Virus record (IMG/VR): IMGVR_UViG_3300042731_009409
Location: 1 to 64,000 of that record
DNA length: 64,000 nucleotides
Origin: a virus
Strand: one strand, 5' to 3'
The stretch's first letter is position 1, and every line of letters begins with the position of its first letter. Below the pieces are notes generated by a model. The model was given only the letters and a program-made list of their open reading frames with translations, was not told the origin of the DNA and did not search any database. The position numbers and the translations under genes were made by a program. Of this stretch, positions 3,670 to 50,526 are shown one piece after another.

Positions 3670-3894
3670 ATGCCAAATCCAAAAAACGATTATGAGACAA
3701 CCGATCTTTTTAATTTTGTAAAATATGAATGTAAAACGAACGATAGTTGTGATATTGAAAAGTTGAGTAAAAAAATTGATTATTTGATTGAAAAGGTTGA
3801 ATTTATAGAAAATAAAATTCAACTCATATTTGGAAATTATGTATTGATAAGAAATAGATTTATAAACATTGGAAAGGACCTTTTAAATAGATGA
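3670..3894 (+). CDS. Hypothetical protein, coiled-coil-like
   Basis: A 74-residue protein. Residues 25-55 have the charge and hydrophobic periodicity of a short coiled coil (IEKLSKKIDYLIEKVEFIE). The start follows the glycosylase stop directly and its own stop overlaps the next ATG (ATGA). Function unknown. Confidence 0.65.
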   Translation: MPNPKNDYETTDLFNFVKYECKTNDSCDIEKLSKKIDYLIEKVEFIENKIQLIFGNYVLIRNRFINIGKDLLNR

Positions 3895-13699: not shown

Positions 13700-13831
13700 G
13701 TTGCTAATATTAACGATTAGTTAAAAAACTACTAATAAAGAAAGCAAGGTGAGATATGAGTGGATAGATAGTATATTATTAAAATGCAAATTGTTTTTAA
13801 AACTAAAATTCTATCGGCAAAAGGAAAAAAA

Positions 13832-14668
13832 ATGACAAAATCCGAATTATTAGAAAAATATAAAAATGGAGAAAGAGATTTTTCTGGAGCAGATCTGACA
13901 AGAACAGATCTTAAAGGAGCAATTCTTAGATGGGTAGGCCTGGAAGGAGCAGAACTGGAAGGAGCAGAACTGGAAGGAGCAGAACTGGAAGGAGCAGATC
14001 TGTATAGAGCAGATCTGACAGGAGCAAATCTGGAAGGAACAAATCTGACAGGAGCAGATCTGAGAAGATCAAATCTGACAGGAGCAAATCTGACAGGAGC
14101 AGATCTGAGAAGATCAAATCTGACAGGAGCAAATCTGTCAGGAGCAGATCTATATAGAGCAGATCTGACAGAAGCAGATCTGGAAGGAGCAGAACTGACA
14201 GGAGCAAATCCGGAAGGAGCAGATCTAGAAGGAGCAGATCTTAGATGGGCAGATCTGGCAGGAGCAGATCTGGCAGGAGCAAATCTGACAGGAGCAGATC
14301 TGACAGGAGCAAATCTGACAGGAGCAGTTCTGACAGGAGCAGATCTTAGATGGGCAGATCTGGAAGAAACAGATCTAAAAAACTGCCAACTGCCATCACC
14401 AACTATGGTGTTGTTAGCAGATTGGGGCGAAATTTCAGACAACCTTTGTATTGAACTGATGCGCTATGACGCATCTTGCCATGAAAAACCAGAATTGTTT
14501 GGTATTTGGAAAACAACCGGAGAATGTCCATATGATAATGTATCATACCAAAGAGTATGTAATTTTGCAGAAAGCAAAACATTGTATTCGCCTGGCCCTA
14601 GTAAAAGACCTATTGATTTGATGATTGCTCTAATCAAAGAAAAGTGCAAAGATAGCAATTGGCACTAA
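13832..14668 (+). CDS. Pentapeptide-repeat protein with C-terminal domain
   Basis: A 278-residue protein from ATG 13832 behind AAAGGAAAAAAA. After a 16-residue N-terminus come 34 uninterrupted pentapeptides of the form (L)xGA(D/N) from F17 to about residue 186. This predicts a right-handed four-sided beta helix of 8-9 coils. The C-terminal 90 residues are non-repetitive (GIWKTTGECPYDNVSYQRV and a final helix) and resemble tails I recall on other phage and prophage pentapeptide proteins. Qnr/MfpA members mimic DNA and act on gyrase; that function is only a possibility here. It ends face to face with the late operon. Confidence 0.88.
   Translation: MTKSELLEKYKNGERDFSGADLTRTDLKGAILRWVGLEGAELEGAELEGAELEGADLYRADLTGANLEGTNLTGADLRRSNLTGANLTGADLRRSNLTGANLSGADLYRADLTEADLEGAELTGANPEGADLEGADLRWADLAGADLAGANLTGADLTGANLTGAVLTGADLRWADLEETDLKNCQLPSPTMVLLADWGEISDNLCIELMRYDASCHEKPELFGIWKTTGECPYDNVSYQRVCNFAESKTLYSPGPSKRPIDLMIALIKEKCKDSNWH
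13880..14389 (+). repeat. 15-bp tandem repeat tract (34 units) inside the coding sequence
   Basis: The pentapeptide region consists of near-identical 15-bp units around GGAGCAGATCTGACA, often exact over several units, including repeated AGATCT. Because the period is a multiple of three, all frames on both strands stay open or nearly so. DNA identity beyond what the protein needs points to recent expansion or homogenisation. Confidence 0.9.
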
Positions 14669-16087: not shown

Positions 16088-18484
16088 TTAATTGGTAGAT
16101 TTTAACATTTCTACCTTTTTGAGTAGATCTTTGTGCTTGTTATAAAGCTGCTTTATTGCACCAAGCAAGAAGGTGATCGAATCACCGGCATGAATAAAAC
16201 AATTGTCGCCGTCTTGTTTTCCTACCATTGGCCAAGGCATTGAGTTTGGATTTGCAGTTCTAACAATCCTCTTTTCACCTTTTTTTATAATCTCTATTTT
16301 TTTATCAGTTGGGCCATAATTCTCTACTAGAGCAAGGTCGTCCTCATCATCAAATGTAGTAAAAGTTGTTTTGTAATATATATTATTTGAGTATATATTG
16401 CCCCAATAATAAGTCGAATCACCTAAATCATAAGTGTTTGTTGTTTTCGGAAACATATCACTAGCTAAACCATTTCCAGCACCTGTTTCAAATGTTAATT
16501 CATCGGTCCTTAAATAACGTGAGTATATTGTTAACCAACGATAAGAGCCATTTCCAATATTATATGATTCATCTGTGTCGGGATAAAAATGAGATCCAAT
16601 TCCTTCGTCACCAGTGACAGAAAAGGTTGCTATTCCATTGGACGTTATATTTTCAGCTGTTATGGTTCCGGCAACCTTAAGATCTTTCCACTTATATGAT
16701 GTTGAGCCTAAGTCATATTCATTATTTGTATCTGGTATCAAGTCCGAAGAGATACCGCCAACAACAAGGTTGCCTTGTAAATACAAATCCTTGAACTTAT
16801 AACTTGAACCACCTATATCATAAGCGTTATTTGTATCTGGGACTATATTGCTTGAAAATCCATTTCCGCCAAGCGCACTTAAATCTATTTTATTGCAACT
16901 TAACGTTCCGCTGCTATAAATGTTTGACCATTGGTAAGAAGGATCTCCTAAATTATAAGTGCTGTTTACAGATGGCTGTAGATTGCTCTGTACGCCACCA
17001 CCAGCGCCCGAGCGGACATAAAGGTAGTCTGTATATATCCTAAGCCAATGGTAGCTTACAGCACCCAGCTGGTGTGTATTATCAGTGTCAGGTATCAAAT
17101 CGCTGGAAATTCCCTCACCTGCTGTTGTTGATACGTTTAATTTTCCACAATATATATTTTGCCATCTATATGTAGCCGAACCAACATCATATGCATTATT
17201 TGTATCCGGCAACAAATCCGAACCAAAATCGGTTACGTCCAAATTATTAACATACAGATTATCCCATCTGTAACTAGAGGCACCAAGATCATGTGTGTTA
17301 TTCGTGTCTGGTATTAAATCAGATGCAACCCCTTGAGACGCGACCGAAAGCTCATTTGTAGACACCCTATTATTACAACTTATATTTTGCGAATACAGAT
17401 AAGACCATTTGAATGATCCGGAACCTAAATTAAATGTATCATCTAATCTTGGCAAAATATGGCCAGAGTTCAAGGATATAAAATATCCGTCTTTCCAAAG
17501 CAATGAGCTAGAACCTATATCCTGAGAATTGCTTGTTGCCGGTAAAAAATCACCACTCAAATCTAAATTTGTAGTATATATTGCAGACCATCTTTTTGAT
17601 GCTGTACCCAACGAATATGTATCATCAGTGTCTGGATAAAAATCTTGTCCCAAACCATTTACAAGTATTTCGGTCCAAGAATGATCTATAATCTTTTGGT
17701 CATCTGTATTGAAAACTGTCGGTGGATTACCTGCACCAGCGCCTGTAACATAACCTATGTAACAATAACCGTCTTCGGTTCTCAAATCAGTATTTCTTCT
17801 TACTGTCGGCCCTTTTATAACAACCGAATACAACGTTTCTGTTTCTGAGATTGTGGTTTGACCCAAATCGCCAGTTGTTGTTATTTTGTTTTCTCCTCCA
17901 CTATATACAACGGTACACTCTTCTTTTGCTATTGCTTCCGTTGTTGCCCCACTTGCTGGCGATTTAAGATAAACAGTTGCGATTCTTCCTGAATGATCAA
18001 CAGACGATTCTGTGATTCCGTCAATCACAAAAGTTATTGTTCCGTTTCCATTATCTGTTGCTGAATCTGGGTCACCTTTTTCGCCTATTTGATCTTCCCA
18101 AGCTATCCATTCGGGATAGCCAGTTCTTGGGTTTATTTGTATACCATCTGGGACCGTTGTGTGTTTTAATGCAATGTAATAGTCTATTGACGATTGGTTT
18201 TCAAATTCAACGTTTTCATATACAGAATTTTCAAAATCAAGAAAATTTCCCAACCCATCACTTGCTATTGCGTTACCATCAACAGTGTCTTGTTCGAGAT
18301 CAAATTTATCATTTCCCGCCGCTGTTATTGCAACGCCGTTAGGATGAAAAAACGCAGCCTCGTATTGTTGACGATTCATTTCTTCTATTCTCGATCGAAG
18401 ATATTCTAAAAACCTAGTTCCGAAATCGTCAGTTCCAACAATTCTTTTTGTAACGATATTTAAATATTTATCACCAGTGGGCAT
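16088..18484 (-). CDS. Repetitive tail fibre protein
   Basis: A 798-residue protein. After an N-terminal region of about 250 residues it carries eleven copies of a ~35-residue unit of the type DLIPDTNNTYDLGSSSYRW, each a short beta repeat common in phage fibres. The C-terminal 60 residues (GDSITFLLGAIKQLYNKHKD) form a helical end that could trimerise. There is no S74-type chaperone signature. It is the last large structural gene of the operon, a usual position for a receptor-binding fibre. Confidence 0.8.
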   Translation of the reverse strand: MPTGDKYLNIVTKRIVGTDDFGTRFLEYLRSRIEEMNRQQYEAAFFHPNGVAITAAGNDKFDLEQDTVDGNAIASDGLGNFLDFENSVYENVEFENQSSIDYYIALKHTTVPDGIQINPRTGYPEWIAWEDQIGEKGDPDSATDNGNGTITFVIDGITESSVDHSGRIATVYLKSPASGATTEAIAKEECTVVYSGGENKITTTGDLGQTTISETETLYSVVIKGPTVRRNTDLRTEDGYCYIGYVTGAGAGNPPTVFNTDDQKIIDHSWTEILVNGLGQDFYPDTDDTYSLGTASKRWSAIYTTNLDLSGDFLPATSNSQDIGSSSLLWKDGYFISLNSGHILPRLDDTFNLGSGSFKWSYLYSQNISCNNRVSTNELSVASQGVASDLIPDTNNTHDLGASSYRWDNLYVNNLDVTDFGSDLLPDTNNAYDVGSATYRWQNIYCGKLNVSTTAGEGISSDLIPDTDNTHQLGAVSYHWLRIYTDYLYVRSGAGGGVQSNLQPSVNSTYNLGDPSYQWSNIYSSGTLSCNKIDLSALGGNGFSSNIVPDTNNAYDIGGSSYKFKDLYLQGNLVVGGISSDLIPDTNNEYDLGSTSYKWKDLKVAGTITAENITSNGIATFSVTGDEGIGSHFYPDTDESYNIGNGSYRWLTIYSRYLRTDELTFETGAGNGLASDMFPKTTNTYDLGDSTYYWGNIYSNNIYYKTTFTTFDDEDDLALVENYGPTDKKIEIIKKGEKRIVRTANPNSMPWPMVGKQDGDNCFIHAGDSITFLLGAIKQLYNKHKDLLKKVEMLKSTN

Positions 18485-32317: not shown

Positions 32318-35026
32318 TTAACCTCTATTCATCGGTGCTGAACCGTGCTCCAACATAGCTCTTCTTTGCCACGGAGTTGATTTAAAACCAGATCTTTCCT
32401 GTATTTCAAGTCTTTTTCTCGAACTTGCTATATTCAAAGAATCTCCATCTATAGACAAATCATTCTTTACATCAATTTGTCTTTTGTCTTCTATTATGTT
32501 CTCAACTTTTATATCTTCTCTTTTCGCCGCTTCTTTTTTTGTTGCAATCGTAGAAGCTTGTGTAGCAAGTTTAGCAAGATCCGAATTTCTTTTAGAAATG
32601 TCTTCAGGTTCTACAAGTTTTTTTGTTTTAACAATACCTATCGACTCAAGCATTTCTTCTCTTGTGTTAAAAACTTTTTCGTTGGATGGCATATTAAATA
32701 AATTTCCACTCAACCCTTCTTTTGCAAAAGTTCTAACAGCGTCAGGTACATCAATATTGAAGGCATCGCCAAGAGCCAATGCTGCCTCTATTATCAACCT
32801 TAATGGTTTTAAAACAAAATCTAATATTGCGGTTCCAAGTTTTGCTAACCCTCTTACCATATCACCAGCAAAAACTTCCTCAAATGCAATTGCAATTTTT
32901 GCAAAACCTTCGCCGAATTGTGTAGCTATCCAATCTACCACCGGCCAAACCATTTTCATAATTGTTTCTATAATCACGCCAACAACTTTTAATAATGTCC
33001 ATATTATATCAACAACAACTTTTACAACTGTATAGATCGCTATCACAATTGATGCAATCAATGGTATTGCATATTTAACAAAAACTAAAATCGCCTGTGC
33101 AATTGCCCCTATTATCGATCCTATTACTCTTCCGACTTCCCGCCAATCTACTTTTGTTTTATCCATTTCGCCAAACAAAAACGTATATAAATCAGCAAAT
33201 ACAAGTTTTATGTTTATAACTATTTCAGACCACACCTTTCCCAGTTCTTCCAAAATCGGTATAAACGCATCTTTAATACCTAGCCATAACGGTTTTAAAA
33301 CATTTTGATAAACATCTAAACCCCAAGTCTTAATGTTTTTCCATACTCTAACGGCTGTTTGAAAAAACGATTCATTTTCTTTCTTAAGTAATTGCCAAGC
33401 TAAAAGTAAAGCGCCAGCAACTATAACAACAGGCCAAAACACAGCAGCCAATATGGTTCCAATTCCGGAAACAATTGATACTATGCCACCAATTATAAAT
33501 TTAACACCAATTAACCCTAATATAACCGGTGTGATTGCTGCCGCTGCAATCAAAAACAGTGATGCCATTTTTGTTATTTGTCTTAATGATGTAGAACCAC
33601 CAAAAGTTTCTTTAAACCAATTTGCACCTTCTTTTATTTTTGTAGTAAGCCAATCCCAAGCATTTCCGATTGTATCTATAGCGTCTCTCAAACCACGCGC
33701 TATATCTAAAGCTGTTTGGCCATATTTTTTTACTGCATCAATGCTTATGCCAATGGATTTAGGATCTTCCGCCGCTTCATTTATTTCCATGAGCGCAAGC
33801 AATACATTGTTAAAACCTTCTGTAAATTGCCTTAACGATGTAGCAAAGGGTTTTAGCAGTGGTTCAAAAAAGTTAACAGATAGACCTTCTAAGGAACTTT
33901 TGAGAAGCGTTACAGAACCGGCAAAATTATCCAATCTTCTTTTGGCCATCTCCAAAGCGGCACCTTCGCCTTCGGACGATTTTTTATATTGTTCCTCAAG
34001 AGAAAGAATACTTTTTCTGCCAGCAATAGCAAGAGCATTATATGCTTTTGCTCCTCTTTGGCCAAACACCTCAGAAATAATCGCTTGTTTTTCAACAACG
34101 TCTTTTATTCCTGACATTTTTTTACTAAAGTCGTCAACAATATCAGCAACTTTTCTTAAACTACCATCACTGTTTGTTAATTCTAATCCAAATTTTTTTA
34201 ATATTTTTTGAGCTTTCTGAGAAGGTTTGGCAAGTTTAATCATCATATTTGAAAATGCCGTACCACCAATAGAACCTCTTAAACCAGCATTTGCAGCAGC
34301 CGCGAACAGAGATGTTACTTCTTCTATCGACAAATTTAAAGATTTTGCGCTTGAAGCGCCATAAACAAACGTTTCGCCTAAAGACAATATATTTGTGTTT
34401 GCGGTTGCACTTGCCAAAGCCAAAACATCCGCAATGTGGCCAGCGTCACTCCATTCCTTGCCCATGCCTTTTACTACTCTTGCAACAACGTCGGCACTCT
34501 GTCCCAATTCTATTCCGTCTGCTGCCGCTGCATTCATAACGCCACCAAGAGACGCTACAATCTCAGTCGGTCTTGCCCCTGCCCTTGCTAAGTATTCCAT
34601 ACCTTCGCCTGCCTGTGAGGCAGAGAACACGGATACAATACCCATTCTCTTTGCCTCTCTAGACAGCATTGACATTTCTTCCCCGGTGGCTCTGGATACG
34701 GCACCAACGGCCGACATTTGTTTTTCATAGTTTATCGCTTGGTTTAAACCTGCACCAATGGCAAGAGATAGAGGGGCAAAACCCAATCCGACACTTCCAA
34801 TCCCTGACGCTATTTTCGATGCACCCGATGATACACCAAGAGCCATAGCTTTCATTTTGGCTGTTAATTGCGACGAGGATTGAGATATTTTACTCATAGA
34901 ATTTGGAACTGTATTTGTAATATTTACAAAACGACTATATGATTCTCTTGCTCTATCAACAGAAGAAACCATTTGTCTGGTATCAGTGGAAAAAATTGAA
35001 CCTAAACCAATTTTTTCAAAAGCCAT
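32318..35026 (-). CDS. Tail tape measure protein
   Basis: A 902-residue protein of the TP901-type tape-measure family: N-terminal helices, then YEKQMSAVGAVSRATGEEMS (100-120), SVFSASQAGEGMEYLARAGA and GLRGSIGGTAFSNMMIKLAKP. Several hydrophobic segments follow between about 490 and 720 (FLIAAAAITPVILGLIGVKF, FWPVVIVAGALLLAWQLL). It sets tail length and may pass through the host membrane with the DNA. It starts one base after the chaperone extension frame ends (TAATG-type overlap), the usual gene order. Confidence 0.92.
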   Translation of the reverse strand: MAFEKIGLGSIFSTDTRQMVSSVDRARESYSRFVNITNTVPNSMSKISQSSSQLTAKMKAMALGVSSGASKIASGIGSVGLGFAPLSLAIGAGLNQAINYEKQMSAVGAVSRATGEEMSMLSREAKRMGIVSVFSASQAGEGMEYLARAGARPTEIVASLGGVMNAAAADGIELGQSADVVARVVKGMGKEWSDAGHIADVLALASATANTNILSLGETFVYGASSAKSLNLSIEEVTSLFAAAANAGLRGSIGGTAFSNMMIKLAKPSQKAQKILKKFGLELTNSDGSLRKVADIVDDFSKKMSGIKDVVEKQAIISEVFGQRGAKAYNALAIAGRKSILSLEEQYKKSSEGEGAALEMAKRRLDNFAGSVTLLKSSLEGLSVNFFEPLLKPFATSLRQFTEGFNNVLLALMEINEAAEDPKSIGISIDAVKKYGQTALDIARGLRDAIDTIGNAWDWLTTKIKEGANWFKETFGGSTSLRQITKMASLFLIAAAAITPVILGLIGVKFIIGGIVSIVSGIGTILAAVFWPVVIVAGALLLAWQLLKKENESFFQTAVRVWKNIKTWGLDVYQNVLKPLWLGIKDAFIPILEELGKVWSEIVINIKLVFADLYTFLFGEMDKTKVDWREVGRVIGSIIGAIAQAILVFVKYAIPLIASIVIAIYTVVKVVVDIIWTLLKVVGVIIETIMKMVWPVVDWIATQFGEGFAKIAIAFEEVFAGDMVRGLAKLGTAILDFVLKPLRLIIEAALALGDAFNIDVPDAVRTFAKEGLSGNLFNMPSNEKVFNTREEMLESIGIVKTKKLVEPEDISKRNSDLAKLATQASTIATKKEAAKREDIKVENIIEDKRQIDVKNDLSIDGDSLNIASSRKRLEIQERSGFKSTPWQRRAMLEHGSAPMNRG

Positions 35027-35235
35027 TATTTTTTACCTTTTTTAAGCATTTTTTCTTCGTCTTTCAGTTGTTTGCTTAAGCGTTTGAGATACCATTCTCT
35101 TTCCACAAATTCCATTTCCATTATTGACGAGTAATCCATTCCCTTCATGCAATAAGTTAATGTAAAAACTTGTTCCAATAAGTCGTCAAGTTTGCTTATT
35201 GGGAAGAAATTCCGAAAAAATTGGTATACTCCCAT
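35026..35235 (-). CDS. Tail assembly chaperone, frameshifted C-terminal part
   Basis: A 69-codon frame overlapping the end of the chaperone gene by 40 bases in the -1 frame. It ends on a charged helix (WYLKRLSKQLKDEEKMLKKGKK). Its apparent ATG at 35235 has no SD. It is more likely expressed as the extension of the 35196-36005 protein by -1 frameshifting at 35214-35220, adding 62 residues after F264. This is the equivalent of lambda gpGT and P2 gpE', which chaperone the tape measure protein. Confidence 0.8.
   Translation of the reverse strand: MGVYQFFRNFFPISKLDDLLEQVFTLTYCMKGMDYSSIMEMEFVEREWYLKRLSKQLKDEEKMLKKGKK
35175..35220 (-). promoter_or_regulatory. Programmed -1 ribosomal frameshift site
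   Basis: On the - strand the heptamer T_TTT_TTC occupies 35220-35214 in the correct phase of the chaperone frame (AAT TTT TTC). Slippage by -1 leads directly into the frame that ends at 35026. Eleven bases further on, CCAATAAG (35202-35195) pairs perfectly with CTTATTGG (35182-35175) across a 12-base loop, a plausible stimulatory hairpin that also contains the zero-frame stop. Placement immediately before the tape measure gene is the classic site for this signal. Confidence 0.85.
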
Positions 35236-36005
35236 GGTATAGTTCTTATAAATTTAGTTTTACAATTGTCGCAAACAGCTTCTATTGATAAATCTGGACC
35301 AAGCCTATTTTGGTCGATTTTGTTTGACAACGTTTCTATATCTGCCTTTCCCATCTCATCAAGTTCGTGATCGACCAAATTTATACTTTCCTTTTCTTCA
35401 TTCAGGCCAATTATGTGCGAAACAAATATTTTTGCTTTTAAGTCGCCAAAACCTTTCATGTTTTTATCCGTGAAAGATTCATACGAATTCCATCTTGACG
35501 GTGCTAATCTGAATTTATTTATCTGTTTTTTTCTTATTTCAAATGGTTCTTTCAATTCATAAAACCATTTCGATTCTTCGAAATCACTGAAACAAGTGTT
35601 ATCTATACTGCCAACATCACCCTTAAATACAAATTCGTTTCCACACGCCCTTGTATTTGGACATGCAAGTTTAATGTCTATTTCAGGACCAAGAGATTTA
35701 TATCTCATATAACAATATAGAAACATAACATCACCGGAAAACATGGTCATTATCTTTAAGATCTTCTCCTCTATTGATAATTTTTCAAAATCCCATGGTC
35801 CAAGCCTTGTAAACATTGTCCCTATAAGCATTGCAACAAATCGGCCTGTGGTAGCATCTTTATTTTTTTCTGCCAACAGGCCGATTTCGCGTTCTTGTTT
35901 CATTGTCCAACGTTTAATTGAAAATGTTTTGTTGTACGAATTGCCATCTCTAATTCCTAATGGCAATTCGTTCATGTCTTTTATTATCCTGGTTTCTTTT
36001 GGCAT
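35196..36005 (-). CDS. Tail assembly chaperone (short form)
   Basis: A 269-residue protein directly upstream of the tape measure gene, with the slippery site six codons before its stop. It contains ACPNTRACGNEF and AVCDNCKTKFIRTIP, paired Cys that may bind zinc, on a mostly helical background (FAVMLIGTMFTRL-like segment near residue 55). The long form would have about 326 residues. Family assignment rests mainly on the frameshift architecture and position rather than on sequence similarity. Confidence 0.75.
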   Translation of the reverse strand: MPKETRIIKDMNELPLGIRDGNSYNKTFSIKRWTMKQEREIGLLAEKNKDATTGRFVAMLIGTMFTRLGPWDFEKLSIEEKILKIMTMFSGDVMFLYCYMRYKSLGPEIDIKLACPNTRACGNEFVFKGDVGSIDNTCFSDFEESKWFYELKEPFEIRKKQINKFRLAPSRWNSYESFTDKNMKGFGDLKAKIFVSHIIGLNEEKESINLVDHELDEMGKADIETLSNKIDQNRLGPDLSIEAVCDNCKTKFIRTIPWEYTNFFGISSQ

Positions 36006-36059: not shown

Positions 36060-36500
36060 TTACGGAAGGGGCTCAACACTATCAGCAGAAGCGGTCCACT
36101 CTATTAATTGTGCTTCGCCGTCATTTCCCATTTCCGAATCGGGTAAATTTCTTTTTGTCAAAAACATTCCATCTAAAAAATAACTTCTAACTGCCGTTTC
36201 AGATGCTGTTTTATATGTCAATGTAGCAGGCCTTTTGTATGTTGGCGCTGAGTTTTTACATTCTAACCACCACTCCTCTAGAGCCAAAACTTCAACTGCA
36301 TGGTGCAGAGGAATAGAAAAAGTGAATTCTACAGGATTCGAATCACCACCACTTGCCTTTGTGTTATCAGGCAAATCAACGGTTTTTAATTCTTCCTCTA
36401 TATTGCCGTGCATTGTTACGGTCAAATCAACCATACCATTAACACTGAGTGTATATTTGTTCTTCGCTGCGTGATCCGGAAGGATTAATCCTTTTAACAT
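36060..36500 (-). CDS. Tail tube protein
   Basis: A 146-residue protein immediately following the sheath and one small gene, the usual place of the tube protein. Pattern: SVNGMVDLTVTMHGNIEEEL, VEFTFSIPLHHAVEVLALEEW and a C-terminal EAQLIEWTASADSVEP, matching the beta-sandwich tube subunits of contractile tails. About 140-170 residues is normal for the family. It polymerises as the inner DNA conduit. Confidence 0.75.
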   Translation of the reverse strand: MLKGLILPDHAAKNKYTLSVNGMVDLTVTMHGNIEEELKTVDLPDNTKASGGDSNPVEFTFSIPLHHAVEVLALEEWWLECKNSAPTYKRPATLTYKTASETAVRSYFLDGMFLTKRNLPDSEMGNDGEAQLIEWTASADSVEPLP

Positions 36501-36513
36501 AATTTACCTCCCT

Positions 36514-36735
36514 TTATTCGATCGTAAACTGAGTGGTTACAGATGATGCTGACGAATCGGTATGGTCAGCATCAGTTTCTGCATTATAGTCTGTTATTAA
36601 TTGGTTTAGGGCGGTTGTCAAAGCTGCAACTTGTGTTGCAATTGCCGCAATTGCATCATACAGCGTAGCAGTGCCGTGTGATTTGTCCAAACCCGCTCCA
36701 GCGTCGCCAATAATCTTTTTTATACTTACGGTCAT
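36514..36735 (-). CDS. Small virion-associated protein between sheath and tube
   Basis: A 73-residue protein with an Ala/Thr-rich helix (YDAIAAIATQVAALTTALNQ) and a polar end. Short proteins of this composition are frequent next to sheath/tube genes; the function is unknown. SD AAAGGAG precedes ATG 36735. Confidence 0.65.
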   Translation of the reverse strand: MTVSIKKIIGDAGAGLDKSHGTATLYDAIAAIATQVAALTTALNQLITDYNAETDADHTDSSASSVTTQFTIE

Positions 36736-36747
36736 TTTATGCTCCTT

Positions 36748-39030
36748 TTAATTAGCAGAATCAAAAATTCCTTGTTTTCCAATTTCTATAATAAATCTTT
36801 CAACTGTATCGGCCAATCTTAATGAAATTGATGCATTAAAATCACCTTGGGCCATCGTTGCATCAGTATTATTTTCGCCATCGATTTTGATTATACATGC
36901 TTCGGAAAATGTATCTCCGCGAATTGCATTTTTCTTTCTCCATTCGGGCAAGAAAAATGATCTTAGCGATGATTTTGTTGGCCCCCACAAGTTAGAATCA
37001 TTTATTTGGAAAATGATCCAATCGTAATTTTCAGAAAGAACGTGCTCGTAATAAGACATCTGCTCGCGTTGATGTTTCCATTTCCAGGTAGAATCCAGAT
37101 ATAAAGTTCTATCACCCCAAATAATATAATTTCCCTTTACCTTTTTGATAACAGAAATCCCAACCGGGTTTAGACTTTCTTCGTCAAGCAAAGTGTTGCC
37201 GGTAGTCAAAGAAAGAATTTCTGGCAACGTTGCGTCAATACCAGCTTGCGCTTTATGATAACCCTCATAATCTCCAGAAAACCTTGCTTCACGACCATGA
37301 ACCATACCCGTATTCGTAACAAGTTTTCTTTTTCCTTCTCCGCTTCCTAGTGGATCGGCAACATAACAGTAAGATGGAAATGAACAAACGGCAAAATCAT
37401 TTCTTCCATACGTGTCATTTATTTGAGAGATCGCACCAATTTCGGTTGTTATGTTTGATGGAATTTCGTATCTGTATTGATGGTTTTTTGCTTCTGCATA
37501 TGCAACTCCCGCCTGAGCGACAGTTGTAGAAGTTACACCAGGGGTGGCCATTTTTACTAAACCAGCATTGGTTCCTTTGAGTCTATTAAACGGACTTGAA
37601 GATGTATCCCACGCTTGTTGTGTATAATCACTATCTGCAATATCTGCATTGCCGTCAATCCCGCCAGCCAATTCCGTTGTTGCAACAACCATAAATTGAT
37701 CGTCTGCTTCAGAAATCGAAGTCATATCAGAACCATCAGCAACGGTTATAGTGTTGTATGCATTTGATACAATTCTGTATTTTTTCAGTTTTTCATTCGC
37801 TTTATCTGGATACAAATAACCATTTGCATATTCGCCATTTTCCAGAGGCTTATAATACACAATAATTACGTCTGCAGCAACACATGCAGTTGACCCAGCC
37901 GTGATTGTAAAAGGAGGAACAAATCTGTGACCAGAATCAAACTCTGTTCCAAAAGTTATTGTCCCGAGAGAACCAAATTCAGACGAAACAACACCGCCCT
38001 CTGTTGCCGATGTCATTGTAATCGTAAGCGTTTGTCGTACCATTTCGGCGTTAACAGTCCCCAAAGCAATTGTAGGGTCGCCAGTTGCGCCAGACAAATC
38101 CATATAATGTATGTTTGCTGTCAAAATAGTATCTGTTACGCTTGAAACAGTTCCATAATAATTTGCTGGACGAACGTTTGCTACGTGAGCACCAGTCCAA
38201 AGATCTTCAGCTTCGATTTCATAATTCGAATCATCGTTGTTTATGATCGAAACCCAATATTTTGTCGAAGTTGGGTCAGTTGACAAATCAGAATATTTTT
38301 TGACAAACTCGCCATCAACATAAACTGATAACGAAAATTCTGTGTCCGGATTTTGTTCGCCGTCCCCAATTTCAAAAGAAACCGCTTTGTCGTCATTGTC
38401 TAAAAACAGAGTATAACCGGTTTCAGAACCAGCGCCTAAATCAGTGTCCATTGTTTGATCTGCCGCAACCTGGATAACACCGGCAGAAGTATTTCCAATA
38501 ATCGGATATTGAGTATTTGCAACACCTTCAAGTTCTACATATCCGCCTTTCCATTGATCTGTTACCCATGTAGTAATACCAGTTGTAATTTCTGTTTCAT
38601 CAATATCTGCTACGTCCGAAACATCGCCATCATACTTTTGTTTTTTTCCACCCCAACGGCCACCGTTATGAGCTTTGATTTTTCCCATAGCAACAGGAAT
38701 TACACCATCTTTTCTCGCATATATAGTTTTTTCAGCTTGAACTTCGTTCCCATCAGTTACTCTAACCAAGTACAAACCACCAGCGCCATTGGCAATCCTG
38801 TAATAACTAAAGCAGTTGTCAGGCAATAGCGAATCGTCTATGTAAGATCCGCATTTTTTCAAAAAACTTGCTCTGCTTTGACACTGTATTAATTCACCGA
38901 CCGGTCCTTTTTCAAGCAAACCGGCATAACCACACCAGCCATATGGTGCAAGCTCAATGCTTTTTTGGCCAGATTTTTCTATTATTACTGTGCCAGCGCC
39001 CCTAGTAGGTCCAAAACGTCTTTGAGCCAT
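36748..39030 (-). CDS. Contractile tail sheath protein
   Basis: A 760-residue sheath subunit. The N-terminus GAGTVIIEKSGQKSIELAPYG and YYRIANGAGGLYLVRVTDG match the start of myovirus sheath proteins. The C-terminal domain (WGPTKSSLRSFFLPEWRKKN, then ASISLRLADTVERFIIEIGK) is the conserved sheath core that mediates contraction. The large central region (about 170-450) is beta-rich and variable, as in large myoviruses. SD AGGAGG precedes the start. Confidence 0.9.
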   Translation of the reverse strand: MAQRRFGPTRGAGTVIIEKSGQKSIELAPYGWCGYAGLLEKGPVGELIQCQSRASFLKKCGSYIDDSLLPDNCFSYYRIANGAGGLYLVRVTDGNEVQAEKTIYARKDGVIPVAMGKIKAHNGGRWGGKKQKYDGDVSDVADIDETEITTGITTWVTDQWKGGYVELEGVANTQYPIIGNTSAGVIQVAADQTMDTDLGAGSETGYTLFLDNDDKAVSFEIGDGEQNPDTEFSLSVYVDGEFVKKYSDLSTDPTSTKYWVSIINNDDSNYEIEAEDLWTGAHVANVRPANYYGTVSSVTDTILTANIHYMDLSGATGDPTIALGTVNAEMVRQTLTITMTSATEGGVVSSEFGSLGTITFGTEFDSGHRFVPPFTITAGSTACVAADVIIVYYKPLENGEYANGYLYPDKANEKLKKYRIVSNAYNTITVADGSDMTSISEADDQFMVVATTELAGGIDGNADIADSDYTQQAWDTSSSPFNRLKGTNAGLVKMATPGVTSTTVAQAGVAYAEAKNHQYRYEIPSNITTEIGAISQINDTYGRNDFAVCSFPSYCYVADPLGSGEGKRKLVTNTGMVHGREARFSGDYEGYHKAQAGIDATLPEILSLTTGNTLLDEESLNPVGISVIKKVKGNYIIWGDRTLYLDSTWKWKHQREQMSYYEHVLSENYDWIIFQINDSNLWGPTKSSLRSFFLPEWRKKNAIRGDTFSEACIIKIDGENNTDATMAQGDFNASISLRLADTVERFIIEIGKQGIFDSAN

Positions 39031-46527: not shown

Positions 46528-47229
46528 TTATCCCCTCCTGCGTGGCGCAAGAACGTTGAAAGTCCAATATGAACTTGCATATATTGAACTTCCTGTTACT
46601 AAATAATTTGTTCTATCTTTCATATTAGCGTCAGTTCCGGTAGTAGTTTGTGGCACTCCTTCATTCAATGGTGCATCAAAAAGTTTGTCATAAACCCTAT
46701 CGTGTCCTCTGGCATAATAGATTTGGCCAATTTCAGAATCGCTTAATTCTCGATTAAAAATTTGTAATCCAGAAAGCCTGCCAAAAAAACCTCTTGAATA
46801 ACCAGACCTATTGCCAGCAATTAAATTTGTTCCACTGTCCGAAACGTTCGAACCAGAACCGGCCACGGACGTTTGAAGTGATACCGACTCTCCATTGATA
46901 TATAATTTGCCAAATGTAGAAGTATATACAGCCGCAACATGCTGCCATTGATTTAACGTAATAGAATAATCTACAGCCCTATAATTTGCATTTCCTGTTT
47001 CACGGTATCTATAAAAAGCCAACGTCTCATTACTTGCATTATCATCCACAAAAAACATCCAACCTGTGGATACACCTTCTTTGCACAATATTCTTCCATA
47101 AGAAGATTGACCCCAACCTAATGGATAAATCCAAGCACTAACGGCAAGGGGATCTAAATCTTCAAGATGGGATGGAGCACCAAAATCTATTCCAGAAGTA
47201 GAAAAAGAGCTATCTAAACGAACACCCAT
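46528..47229 (-). CDS. LamG/concanavalin-like virion protein
   Basis: A 233-residue protein with a jelly-roll lectin signature: AVSAWIYPLGWG, LNQWQHVAAVYTS, GKLYINGE and FGRLSGLQIFNRELSDSEI. These are the standard blocks of LamG-like domains that bind carbohydrate. It is encoded between two fibre-type proteins and probably presents a sugar-binding head. Confidence 0.8.
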   Translation of the reverse strand: MGVRLDSSFSTSGIDFGAPSHLEDLDPLAVSAWIYPLGWGQSSYGRILCKEGVSTGWMFFVDDNASNETLAFYRYRETGNANYRAVDYSITLNQWQHVAAVYTSTFGKLYINGESVSLQTSVAGSGSNVSDSGTNLIAGNRSGYSRGFFGRLSGLQIFNRELSDSEIGQIYYARGHDRVYDKLFDAPLNEGVPQTTTGTDANMKDRTNYLVTGSSIYASSYWTFNVLAPRRRG

Positions 47230-48416
47230 TAGCTAAACCTTATTCCTAACATCAATAGCGTCCAATCGCCGCTCAATTCTGTTCCAGCTTGTGGGTTTAC
47301 ACGTGTCATTTCGAACTGCACTATTTCACCAGCACTAACAGACAAAGAAGAAATAGCAATTGTTTCTGAATCGTATTGCCATTGTTCGTTATCTGGAATG
47401 TCAATGTCATCCATTGTAAAACCAGCTGTCCAACTGTCAACCGTGTTTGGCAAACCCCTATTATAAAGTTTTAATCCGACCGTTCTAGATCCGCCTGGAG
47501 CAGTTTCAGCCCTGGATACAATATCTATAATTATATTTGTAATTCCTGACGGCAATCTGACAGTAAAGCCAATGCCCTCCTCGGTAGTATCGTCAAACCG
47601 CCTAACATAAAAAGCCGAGTTGTTAGAATCTACACCACCACCAGCGTGCACATTAACTGTCCAATCCGAATTAATAGGGAACTCTAATTGATCAGCAAAG
47701 ATTTGAAATTCTGGATAAGACGAACCGCCACCAGGAGGTTCTGACCAACTTCCATCAGCCCTTAAATAGTTAGTTGTACCACCACCTAATTTAGGCAATA
47801 AACCATGTGCTGATGTAGTAGCGTTTAAATCTGTGTTGTCATCAGGAGCGCTTAAATCATCTAATTTTATAGCATCTCCACCACCACTCTCATGTGAAGT
47901 ATTGTGTGAAGTAGGCGTCCTTGAATCGCTCAAACGGCTATCATTTCCTTCGCAAGCCGTATTCGCAGACGAACCATAAACTTGTTGAGAACCAGTTAAT
48001 TTACTGCTACCATCTAAACCTGCATAACCGCTAGCAGCATTTTTGTTAGCCGTCATTTCGGCTCCTGCTGCCGCTACATTAGTAGCATCTGTTACGTCAG
48101 CATTTGCCTCAATATTATCTAACTTGCTACCATCTGTCGACAAATCTCTTCCGTCTACAGTTCCAGAAGTCGCAATATTTCCGGAATCATCAACGGTAAC
48201 AGAACTGTTTTGTAAAACTTTTCCGGTCGTACCGTCGAATCTTGCTACGGCGTTATCAGTTGAACTTGCATCACCAACAACATTACCTTTTATTTCCGTT
48301 TCGGTTCCGCCATCATCTTTTATATACAAACTGCCATCGGTTTTAACATAAAGTTTTTGATAACCAGTTGCTGGTATATCATGGCTGTCAGTTTCCTTTA
48401 GTGTTATTTCTGACAT
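47229..48416 (-). CDS. Fibre protein
   Basis: A 395-residue protein. The N-terminal part (YQKLYVKTDGSLYIKDDGGT, AVARFDGTTGKVLQNSSVTV) and the middle SRLSDSRTPTSHNTSH are repeats typical of phage side fibres. The C-terminal sandwich (AFYVRRFDDTTEEGIGFTVR to LLMLGIRF) resembles the C-terminal domain of the three fibre paralogues at 20.3-23.9 kb. One-base overlap with the lectin gene. Confidence 0.75.
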   Translation of the reverse strand: MSEITLKETDSHDIPATGYQKLYVKTDGSLYIKDDGGTETEIKGNVVGDASSTDNAVARFDGTTGKVLQNSSVTVDDSGNIATSGTVDGRDLSTDGSKLDNIEANADVTDATNVAAAGAEMTANKNAASGYAGLDGSSKLTGSQQVYGSSANTACEGNDSRLSDSRTPTSHNTSHESGGGDAIKLDDLSAPDDNTDLNATTSAHGLLPKLGGGTTNYLRADGSWSEPPGGGSSYPEFQIFADQLEFPINSDWTVNVHAGGGVDSNNSAFYVRRFDDTTEEGIGFTVRLPSGITNIIIDIVSRAETAPGGSRTVGLKLYNRGLPNTVDSWTAGFTMDDIDIPDNEQWQYDSETIAISSLSVSAGEIVQFEMTRVNPQAGTELSGDWTLLMLGIRFS

Positions 48417-48831: not shown

Positions 48832-50526
48832 TTATGCAGCTTTCTTACCAATATATTGAGGAGCAACATCAAGATCGGTGGCATTTTTTGCCGTCCCTAC
48901 AAAAATAACGTGATTTCCTGCTGAGACATTTCCAATCCCACTTACCAAACCGCCAGAATCGCCGACATAATATCTATCACCAACTGTTGCGCCAGAAATA
49001 ACACCAACCGCAACACCAAGTTTTACAACCGTACCAGTACCAGATGCGGAGATTCCACCAGACTCTTCAACAACTCCGATTATATCAATCCTGCCAGTTA
49101 CACTTGCTTGGCATTCTCGGATTTCATCATTGGTGGTTCCCCATTCAACAGCATCGCCCTGCGCCAAAGTTTCTTCAGCAGTTAATTCATCTTCCAAACG
49201 ATCTGCACTTCCAATCGCGTGAGTGTGCAAAGTAGTTGCACCACCACCAGTCAACTCGTTTAAATTTGCAGCAGTTACATTTGTAGTCGTTGAAACTCCG
49301 TTAACAGTAAATTGCAAAGGAACGCCAAGAACATTTAGAGACGTTGCTTTAGAAATAGTAGTCCCATCAACCAAAGCTTCTAAATCGCCAGACCCATCAA
49401 ATTGCAAACCTGGATCGGATGCTGCTAAATCAATACCGATGCCACTAGAAGTAATTTCAATTCCTGCACTGGTATTTGCTTTTGCCTGCAAATCTCCACT
49501 TGAAAACTCCAAGCCCGGATCGGTCGCAAGAGAAATAGCAGCGATTCCGCTTGTGACAACAAGACCATAATCAGAATCAAAAGTGACTTTACCTTTTGTT
49601 CCACCACCACTTGCCGATGTAGCATCAGGAATCGAACTTGCACCCGTCATTGCCTGCCAGGTATCAGCATCATCATCCCAGATATAAGCTTGATCGAGAT
49701 TTTCGATTGTATGAATTTCGCCCGGAATCAAAGAACTTTGCGTTCTATTAAATCCAAAATTGGTGCTCCCGGGAACGGACGAAGGCAGAGTGGATAATGT
49801 CTTTTTGGTATATTGAGTTTCGCCGCCAAAATCTACAATTTGACAATCTGCTTGAGTTCCCCAAGTTCCGTAAATTGAAGATGCAGAACCATCATTGTCA
49901 TCCTCGATTATTACGACAACGCCATCAGTGTCAATTGCATCTAAATCTGTGGAAAAATAAGCTCCCCAAATCGCAGAACCATCACCTTGAATTGCTGCAG
50001 CAAGGTTTGTCATGCTGTCGGCTACAGTTGCACCAATCGTATACTGCACATCGCCGCCTGTGCCCGCTCCATATGTTCTTGTAGTAGTTCCATCCGTAAC
50101 AACAATCGTGTCACCAGAAGAAGGGTTTGAAGCCATCGTGAGAGCCACAGAAGCTAATACGCCTTCGGTATCATCTAGCTGATTCTCGTGCAACACAAGC
50201 TCCTTTACCTGACCACCAGTAATTACAGCAGTATCTAATTGCCCTTTGTTAACGGCATCTGTTGCAACAGTACCATCGGCTAAGCCAGTGATTTTGTTGG
50301 TACCCATTGCCAGGTTAGATGTAAGGGTCAAGCCGGCAAGACTCGCTCCACTTTGCCCATAAGACAAAGCATCGCCAGATGCACTTGCACTTGCAAGCCC
50401 AGTCACCTTGTTTGTACCCATTGTAATATTGCCAGACATTGCCAAACCGCCAAGAGCAATATCATCTGATGTTGCCATTTCCTCAGCGCCATAGTCACCT
50501 AAAAATAGAGGTTTTCGTGTTGCCAT
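48832..50526 (-). CDS. Head-fibre or decoration protein with repeats
   Basis: A 564-residue protein. The N-terminal 100 residues carry MSGNITMGTNKVTGLASASA-type repeats with periodic Gly-Leu-Ala, found in phage fibre shafts. A middle beta domain, then GLEFSSGDLQAKANTSAGIE repeats follow. The last 120 residues (LAQGDAVEWGTTNDEIRECQ to ISGATVGDRYYVGDSGGLVS) resemble a DUF2190-like decoration barrel. First large gene after the capsid group in transcription order, so attachment to the head is possible. Confidence 0.7.
   Translation of the reverse strand: MATRKPLFLGDYGAEEMATSDDIALGGLAMSGNITMGTNKVTGLASASASGDALSYGQSGASLAGLTLTSNLAMGTNKITGLADGTVATDAVNKGQLDTAVITGGQVKELVLHENQLDDTEGVLASVALTMASNPSSGDTIVVTDGTTTRTYGAGTGGDVQYTIGATVADSMTNLAAAIQGDGSAIWGAYFSTDLDAIDTDGVVVIIEDDNDGSASSIYGTWGTQADCQIVDFGGETQYTKKTLSTLPSSVPGSTNFGFNRTQSSLIPGEIHTIENLDQAYIWDDDADTWQAMTGASSIPDATSASGGGTKGKVTFDSDYGLVVTSGIAAISLATDPGLEFSSGDLQAKANTSAGIEITSSGIGIDLAASDPGLQFDGSGDLEALVDGTTISKATSLNVLGVPLQFTVNGVSTTTNVTAANLNELTGGGATTLHTHAIGSADRLEDELTAEETLAQGDAVEWGTTNDEIRECQASVTGRIDIIGVVEESGGISASGTGTVVKLGVAVGVISGATVGDRYYVGDSGGLVSGIGNVSAGNHVIFVGTAKNATDLDVAPQYIGKKAA

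Follow-up and report, generated by a model that had tools for sequence, protein, structure and literature searches.

Tail-assembly chaperones made in two frameshifted forms immediately before the tape measure gene are an established kind of phage protein. In a 2016 review (PMC5009743), lambda gpG/gpGT and P2 E/E′ are each described as two products of a single gene, a short form and a -1 frameshifted long one; the gene stands directly ahead of the tape measure gene and has a slippery heptamer near its 3′ end, and frameshifting of tail chaperones is said there to be widespread "except T4". A further case (PMC12846349) is phage Adele, whose chaperone shifts -1 at a poly-T sequence (GTTTTT) before the tape measure gene, in an arrangement conserved in Vandenendeviridae/Andersonviridae. 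The same paper cites a poly-T -1 signal in the TAC-N genes of T4-like phages, and part of the frameshifting in the family considered below may thus be known already.

T4 has two separate genes, 26 and 51, whose products are both classed as hub assembly chaperones in PMC3004832. Both match PF12322 (gp26, 8.8e-64; gp51, 3.9e-52); the last residues of gp26 are ...KEFFELL, and the C-end of gp51 reaches about 40 residues further. A 2022 study by Vladimirov et al. reportedly identified, according to its title, chaperone genes that yield their products by some means other than frameshifting. These are very probably genes 26 and 51, whose standing as T4's chaperone pair is very probably in print already. 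Among the titles and abstract openings found in the PMC literature, none described frameshifting in the gp26/gp51 family.

Here we describe a locus in a 64,000-nt stretch of DNA (hereafter, the window) lying within a 108,355-base IMG/VR virus record. We propose, with a probability of roughly 0.9, that the window comes from a contractile-tailed phage whose gene before the tape measure encodes a tail-assembly chaperone with a -1 frameshift, yielding predicted forms of 269 and 326 residues. Like the lambda and P2 genes, it has its heptamer near the 3′ end and lies directly before the tape measure gene; its protein differs from lambda gpG and P2 E in belonging to another family (the T4 gp26/gp51 group), in its 269 residues and in its Cys pairs, a distinction drawn from these properties. 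From the Adele chaperone, as portrayed in PMC12846349, it differs in heptamer and in phage group. The kind of gene is known already and the window gene is a divergent new member of it; the wider interest lies in the presence of two shift directions in one family and in what this may mean for the separate T4 genes 26 and 51.

Overlapping frames in the tail module

The contractile-tail module lies on the minus strand, in the order sheath, candidate tube, chaperone gene and tape measure, followed by more tail genes:

36748..39030, minus strand: tail sheath, 760 aa, of a contractile tail (phrog_23, 1.2e-20)
36060..36500, minus strand: candidate tail tube, 146 aa, named from its position between sheath and chaperone
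35196..36005, minus strand: 269-aa short form (TAC-N like) of the putative tail-assembly chaperone, read in the zero frame (phrog_150, fold, relatives)
35214..35220, minus strand: predicted slippery heptamer T_TTT_TTC at codons 263-264 (FF), an in-phase, conserved motif
35173..35205, minus strand: downstream hairpin of 10 bp with one bulge and a 12-nt loop, spanning the zero-frame stop
35026..35213, minus strand: predicted -1-frame extension, 62 codons plus stop, the C-terminal part of the putative long form (TAC-NC like), matched by a profile of +1-frame extensions
32318..35026, minus strand: tape measure protein, 902 aa (PF10145, 3.3e-41; phrog_1533, 3.4e-81)

Family searches with the candidate tube protein returned no match; in the phages SP-15 and LIS04 a tube gene likewise lies between sheath and chaperone. 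A 73-aa ORF (36514-36735, minus strand) separates the sheath from the candidate tube and has no family match below E = 0.01. Neither a second copy of the chaperone gene nor a separate long-form gene was found in the 108-kb record. Elsewhere in this phage genome we observed a 294-aa pentapeptide-repeat protein (13784-14668, plus strand; PF00805, 7.9e-60) and a 798-aa tail spike (16088-18484, minus strand) with matches to several tail fibre/spike families and a short match to the endosialidase end-domain family PF12219. Separate from this spike, on the head side of the sheath gene, are two tail-fibre-like proteins (48832-50526 and 47229-48416, minus strand), the former with a YadA stalk match.

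The zero frame of the chaperone gene (36005..35196) ends ...TAT ACC AAT TTT TTC GGA ATT TCT TCC CAA TAA. As claimed in the initial annotation, a T_TTT_TTC heptamer of the X_XXY_YYZ type stands in zero-frame phase near the stop, at 35220..35214, and is followed by five sense codons and then the stop. The -1 frame, entered at CGG (35213), does run for the 62 codons that had been counted, to a TAA at 35028..35026 that overlaps the tape-measure ATG (35026) by one base, so that the predicted fusion comprises 264 + 62 = 326 residues, the size anticipated.

Taken alone, these features carry limited weight. Across the 43 window ORFs picked as genes (13,151 codons), any in-phase X_XXY_YYZ heptamer occurred 156 times, for an expectation of about 20% in the 18-codon overlap, which makes a generic heptamer unconvincing by itself; the specific T_TTT_TTY occurred in phase 8 times, for an expectation of about 1% in 18 codons with both frames open. 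Alternative frames open past stops are also frequent in the window because the next gene often sits in them, and openness is consequently weak evidence as well. It is conservation across relatives that settles the question of chance.

Family membership, extension and hairpin

A tblastn search of 50,697 phage records with the zero-frame protein matched only two SP-15 records, at 24% identity, and a genome-contig scan of host genomes gave 43 pattern matches, none of them a relative. Closer relatives came from IMG/VR, one locus (L002) at 77% identity and three (L003, L004 and L009) at 40%. For the wider family we assembled a panel of 104 loci, of which 99 are distinct at 90% identity, from homologues of the SP-15 protein in phage records plus 80 IMG/VR loci, these being the best-scoring 80 of the 463 retrieved by an alignment with SP-15 at its head; L004, L006-L008 and L011 were left out as repeats of contigs or sequences already included. 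The loci differ from one another at most positions: in an alignment of 45 relatives with the window protein, identity to the latter is 15-21%, with L002 and L003 excepted.

Profile and fold comparisons place the zero-frame protein, on predicted grounds, with T4 gp26/gp51, a group annotated as "baseplate hub". Against PF12322 (T4_baseplate; cut-off 24.5 bits) the window protein scored 23.7, short by 0.8, while L002 reached 25.6 and L003 29.0, and all three matched phrog_150 (4.1e-9, 3.7e-10 and 9.7e-10, respectively). Its predicted structure (pLDDT 79.7, pTM 0.80) returned 54/283 matches at E<=0.001 in a BFVD fold search, including the SP-15 hub (1.5e-11), a "baseplate hub assembly protein, T4-like" (2.5e-11) and gp26 of Aeromonas phage 25 (2.7e-4); a PDB fold search returned 0/77 matches at that threshold. 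The initial annotation had regarded a large, Cys-rich protein as unlike the usual small chaperones. The 269 residues and a moderate cysteine content (6/269 residues) were borne out, and membership in the T4 gp26/gp51 family, within which such a protein is not out of place, accounts for both. The "baseplate hub" proteins of SP-15 (Bacillus) and LIS04 (Listeria) belong to the same family, in loci ordered sheath, tube, hub-chaperone and tape measure, and carry a homologous extension that is reached in the +1 frame at TTT_TTT, in contrast with the -1 frame of the window. Tape measure genes are not always adjacent in the family: 6/10 downstream proteins tested match a tape-measure family, and the annotated neighbours in RaK2-like jumbo phages are other genes, that of RaK2 itself being a divergently oriented protein noted as tape-measure-like.

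L002 and L003 keep the heptamer at the same place and in the same phase, and their -1 frame is open to the tape measure gene. Extension frames were assigned with a profile whose 18 seeds, picked by eye, were all +1-frame extensions from other phages, with zero -1 sequences among them; assignment by frame length had placed several loci (e.g., L037, L049, L059, L069, L079) in the wrong frame. This profile matched the -1 frames of the window (3.4e-12), L002 (7.8e-15) and L003 (8.7e-15), and the other frame went unscored in each. Across the panel, 100/104 loci scored E<=0.01 in exactly one alternative frame (18 of these were the seeds; 82/86 non-seeds), the exceptions being L018, L021, L028 and L030, and the lowest opposite-frame E in these 104 loci, which include the best 80 of 463 from IMG/VR, was 0.86. 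AlphaFold2 predicted three helices for the window extension (pLDDT 84.7). Substitutions in the extension concentrate on third positions of the -1 frame between the window and L002 (6, 5 and 18 at codon positions one to three) and between the window and L003 (15, 14 and 27), and this third-position excess is absent between L002 and L003 (14, 14, 14). In the overlap, 8/8 codons are identical between the window and L002, a level that other stretches of the gene equal. A weak phrog_634 match (E=0.039) was confined to the L002 extension and absent from those of the window and L003. From this, we concluded that the -1 extension is a real, homologous coding domain; the overlap of the two frames, the conservation of the in-phase heptamer, the extension and the gene order are firm as far as DNA sequence can establish them.

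The hairpin that had been noted 11 nt past the heptamer, pairing CCAATAAG (35202..35195) with CTTATTGG (35182..35175) over 8 bp and including the zero-frame stop, was recovered. Pairing of 35205..35195 with 35182..35173 lengthens the stem to 10 bp, with one bulge, and shortens the spacer to 8 nt. The bulged 10-bp form is common to 3/3 close loci, with folding z-scores of -2.65 in the window, -1.50 in L002 and -3.24 in L003, and in an alignment of the three, 96.7% of cells are paired, as against <=53% when slid. Two-sided change was seen once in these three sequences, a number that shuffles reach in 152/500, and within the window gene 8/28 other stretches equal or surpass it in folding; when a longer part of the window is folded, a competing structure wins (z -1.15). 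Over the 25 loci with -1 extensions, from the panel that includes the best 80 of 463, mean z was -1.13 (9 below -1.5), compared with -0.38 for 100 positions drawn at random within the genes (p=0.006, ignoring kinship) and -0.85 at 73 +1 sites. The hairpin is thus conserved in the close group and only moderately stable, and a stimulatory role for it is plausible. Conservation of phase and hairpin in relatives had been suggested as a check, and both are kept in L002 and L003.

Putative slip sites and shift direction across the family

Among the 99 distinct loci, the extension lies in the -1 frame in 25 and in the +1 frame in 74, counts in which +1 is over-represented, as the panel (including the best 80 of 463 from IMG/VR) was searched for with an alignment headed by the +1-type SP-15, and which are not independent trials, since the loci are related by descent. 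Every -1 type carries T_TTT_TTC (23/25) or T_TTT_TTT (2/25) in phase in the overlap, as opposed to 1/74 +1 types (L043). The codon before the FF pair ends in T in all 25 -1 types, across eight amino acids and against a background third-base T of 35%, compared with 3/70 of the +1 types that have FF.

The +1 types have a different signature. UUU_Y, which lets Phe-tRNA move forward one base, stands at the junction in 73/74, the exception being L021, whose extension lacks support; TTT_TTT_TGG is found in 59/74, and exactly UUU_UUU_UGG_CCU in 54/74. Elsewhere in these genes, among 19,361 other codons, TTT_TGG occurs once and UUU_Y 96 times. UUU_UUU_UGG_CCU, which we observed widely at the ends of hub/chaperone genes (L016, L031-L110, e.g., L039, L055, L078), appears to be a distinct kind of +1 frameshift site. 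Re-pairing at -2 would also be possible in 65/73 of the UUU_Y loci of +1 type, and only +1 in the remaining 8. The initial annotation had held that relatives with the heptamer lost and both frames still open would refute frameshifting. In a sense such relatives are common, as 73/74 +1 types are without the -1 heptamer; these have a UUU_Y slip site at the same protein position, indicating that direction has changed and frameshifting has not been lost.

The family therefore appears, from its slip sites, to use two shift directions; repeated switching between them is not claimed. The tree's two direction changes include one owed to L021, a doubtful case with a very long branch, no UUU_Y and a +1 label that rests on an extension of E=0.87, and without it the tree needs one change, with weak support for the branch of the +1 group (82/26). 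L021 itself (Alishewanella phage Slicko01, 1099-2050) is a very divergent family member ending DDFEEFLRTN, whose +1-frame ORF resembles the T4 gp51 C-end by eye (ESISKMSVSKYDFYISALEKD); it has neither a clear slip site nor support from the profile. In L017 (Agrobacterium phage Atu_ph07, about 3783-3830), CAT TTT TTC GCA TGA is followed by a strong 11-bp hairpin, which has the strongest folding z-score of the 25 -1 loci (-3.53).

Alternative readings, proposed mechanism and the T4 family

The window by itself did not exclude independent initiation of the -1 frame, which has its own ATG at 35235, upstream of the heptamer. From there the extension could be a separate small gene of 69 aa overlapping the chaperone gene, in keeping with the small "hypothetical protein" annotated at the extension's position in SP-15, Mel-JY01, Phosso and several jumbo phages. 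In L002 and L003, however, a -1-frame stop lies 3 codons before the codon following the heptamer and bars upstream starts, and the first ATG after it comes at codon 22 or 25, past part of the conserved region, which removes independent initiation in these two relatives. By inspection, no strong Shine-Dalgarno sequence was seen before 35235, and a gene with its own start fails to predict the near-invariant slip sites of either direction class. We consider a separate gene very improbable.

Transcriptional slippage could join the frames on the run of six T just as ribosomal slippage would, and runs of 6-7 T occur in both direction classes. Polymerase slippage would be indifferent to codon phase, yet N_NNT_TTT_TTC (including its TTT variant) accompanies -1 in every case, and phase is likewise tied to +1, through TTT_TTT_TGG or UUU_Y; because the phase of the T run tracks shift direction, ribosomal slippage is favored. 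Six-T runs are, moreover, short for slippage by bacterial polymerase, and the transcriptional reading seems to us to deserve equally little credence. That the overlap is a chance pairing of an open frame and a common motif, with no function, draws on the abundance of both in the window, but this is contradicted by the homology of the extension to the +1-frame extensions of other phages and by retention of the specific heptamer in all -1 types, and we regard chance as having next to no likelihood. The -1 frameshifted chaperone, as originally proposed, is the reading with which the heptamer, the homologous -1 domain, the tape-measure neighbor, the common hairpin and the absence, in the two closest relatives, of any upstream start that could serve all fit.

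Under ribosomal frameshifting, most ribosomes would stay in the zero frame beyond TTT TTC and terminate at the stop, giving the 269-residue short form. A smaller fraction would be held up over U_UUU_UUC, probably aided by the hairpin 8 nt downstream, and would slip back one base, with the Phe-tRNAs re-pairing on UUU_UUU; these ribosomes would pass the zero-frame stop in the -1 frame and make the 326-residue form, whose C-terminal extension is predicted to be helical. Lambda G/GT provides an analogy for the use of the two forms: the short one in many copies and the long one in few may coat the tape measure protein and bring in subunits of the tail tube. In a chaperone of this kind, the short form would be in large excess over the long one, and both would bind tape measure and tube yet be missing from the virion. 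We infer the slippage and its rate, the stimulation by the hairpin and the roles of the two forms from the arrangement of the locus and from this analogy.

T4 differs from the window phage in dividing its proteins between two genes, where the window phage has one gene with two frames. One is tempted to equate gp26 with the short form and gp51 with the long one. A comparable extension was not found downstream of gp26, and the gp51 C-end, although attractive by eye, was rejected as an established homologue of the extension: a single-sequence comparison gave E=0.52, with two shuffles ahead of it, and a profile-profile comparison, using a gp51 profile of nine rows of which one (L119) is a truncated 120-aa reading, gave a probability of 3% and E=0.015 (0.2% and 0.3 for reversed sequences).

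Putative frameshift sites are present in nearly all non-T4 members examined of this family, annotated as baseplate hub. We tentatively suggest, at somewhat less than even odds, that frameshifting is ordinary in the gp26/gp51 family and perhaps ancestral, occurring in one part of it as -1 on U_UUU_UUC and in another, at the same protein position, as +1 on UUU_Y (mostly UUU_UUU_UGG), and that the separate T4 genes 26 and 51 are derived. If so, thousands of "baseplate hub" genes would be mis-described, with their long form missing. Frameshift sites across the relatives of the T4 hub-assembly proteins would give a testable account of the T4 exception stated in PMC5009743, and the chaperone reading would correct the common "baseplate hub" annotation. 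The family may also be a natural example of phages arriving at a single protein junction by opposite routes, a -1 shift in some and a +1 shift in others.
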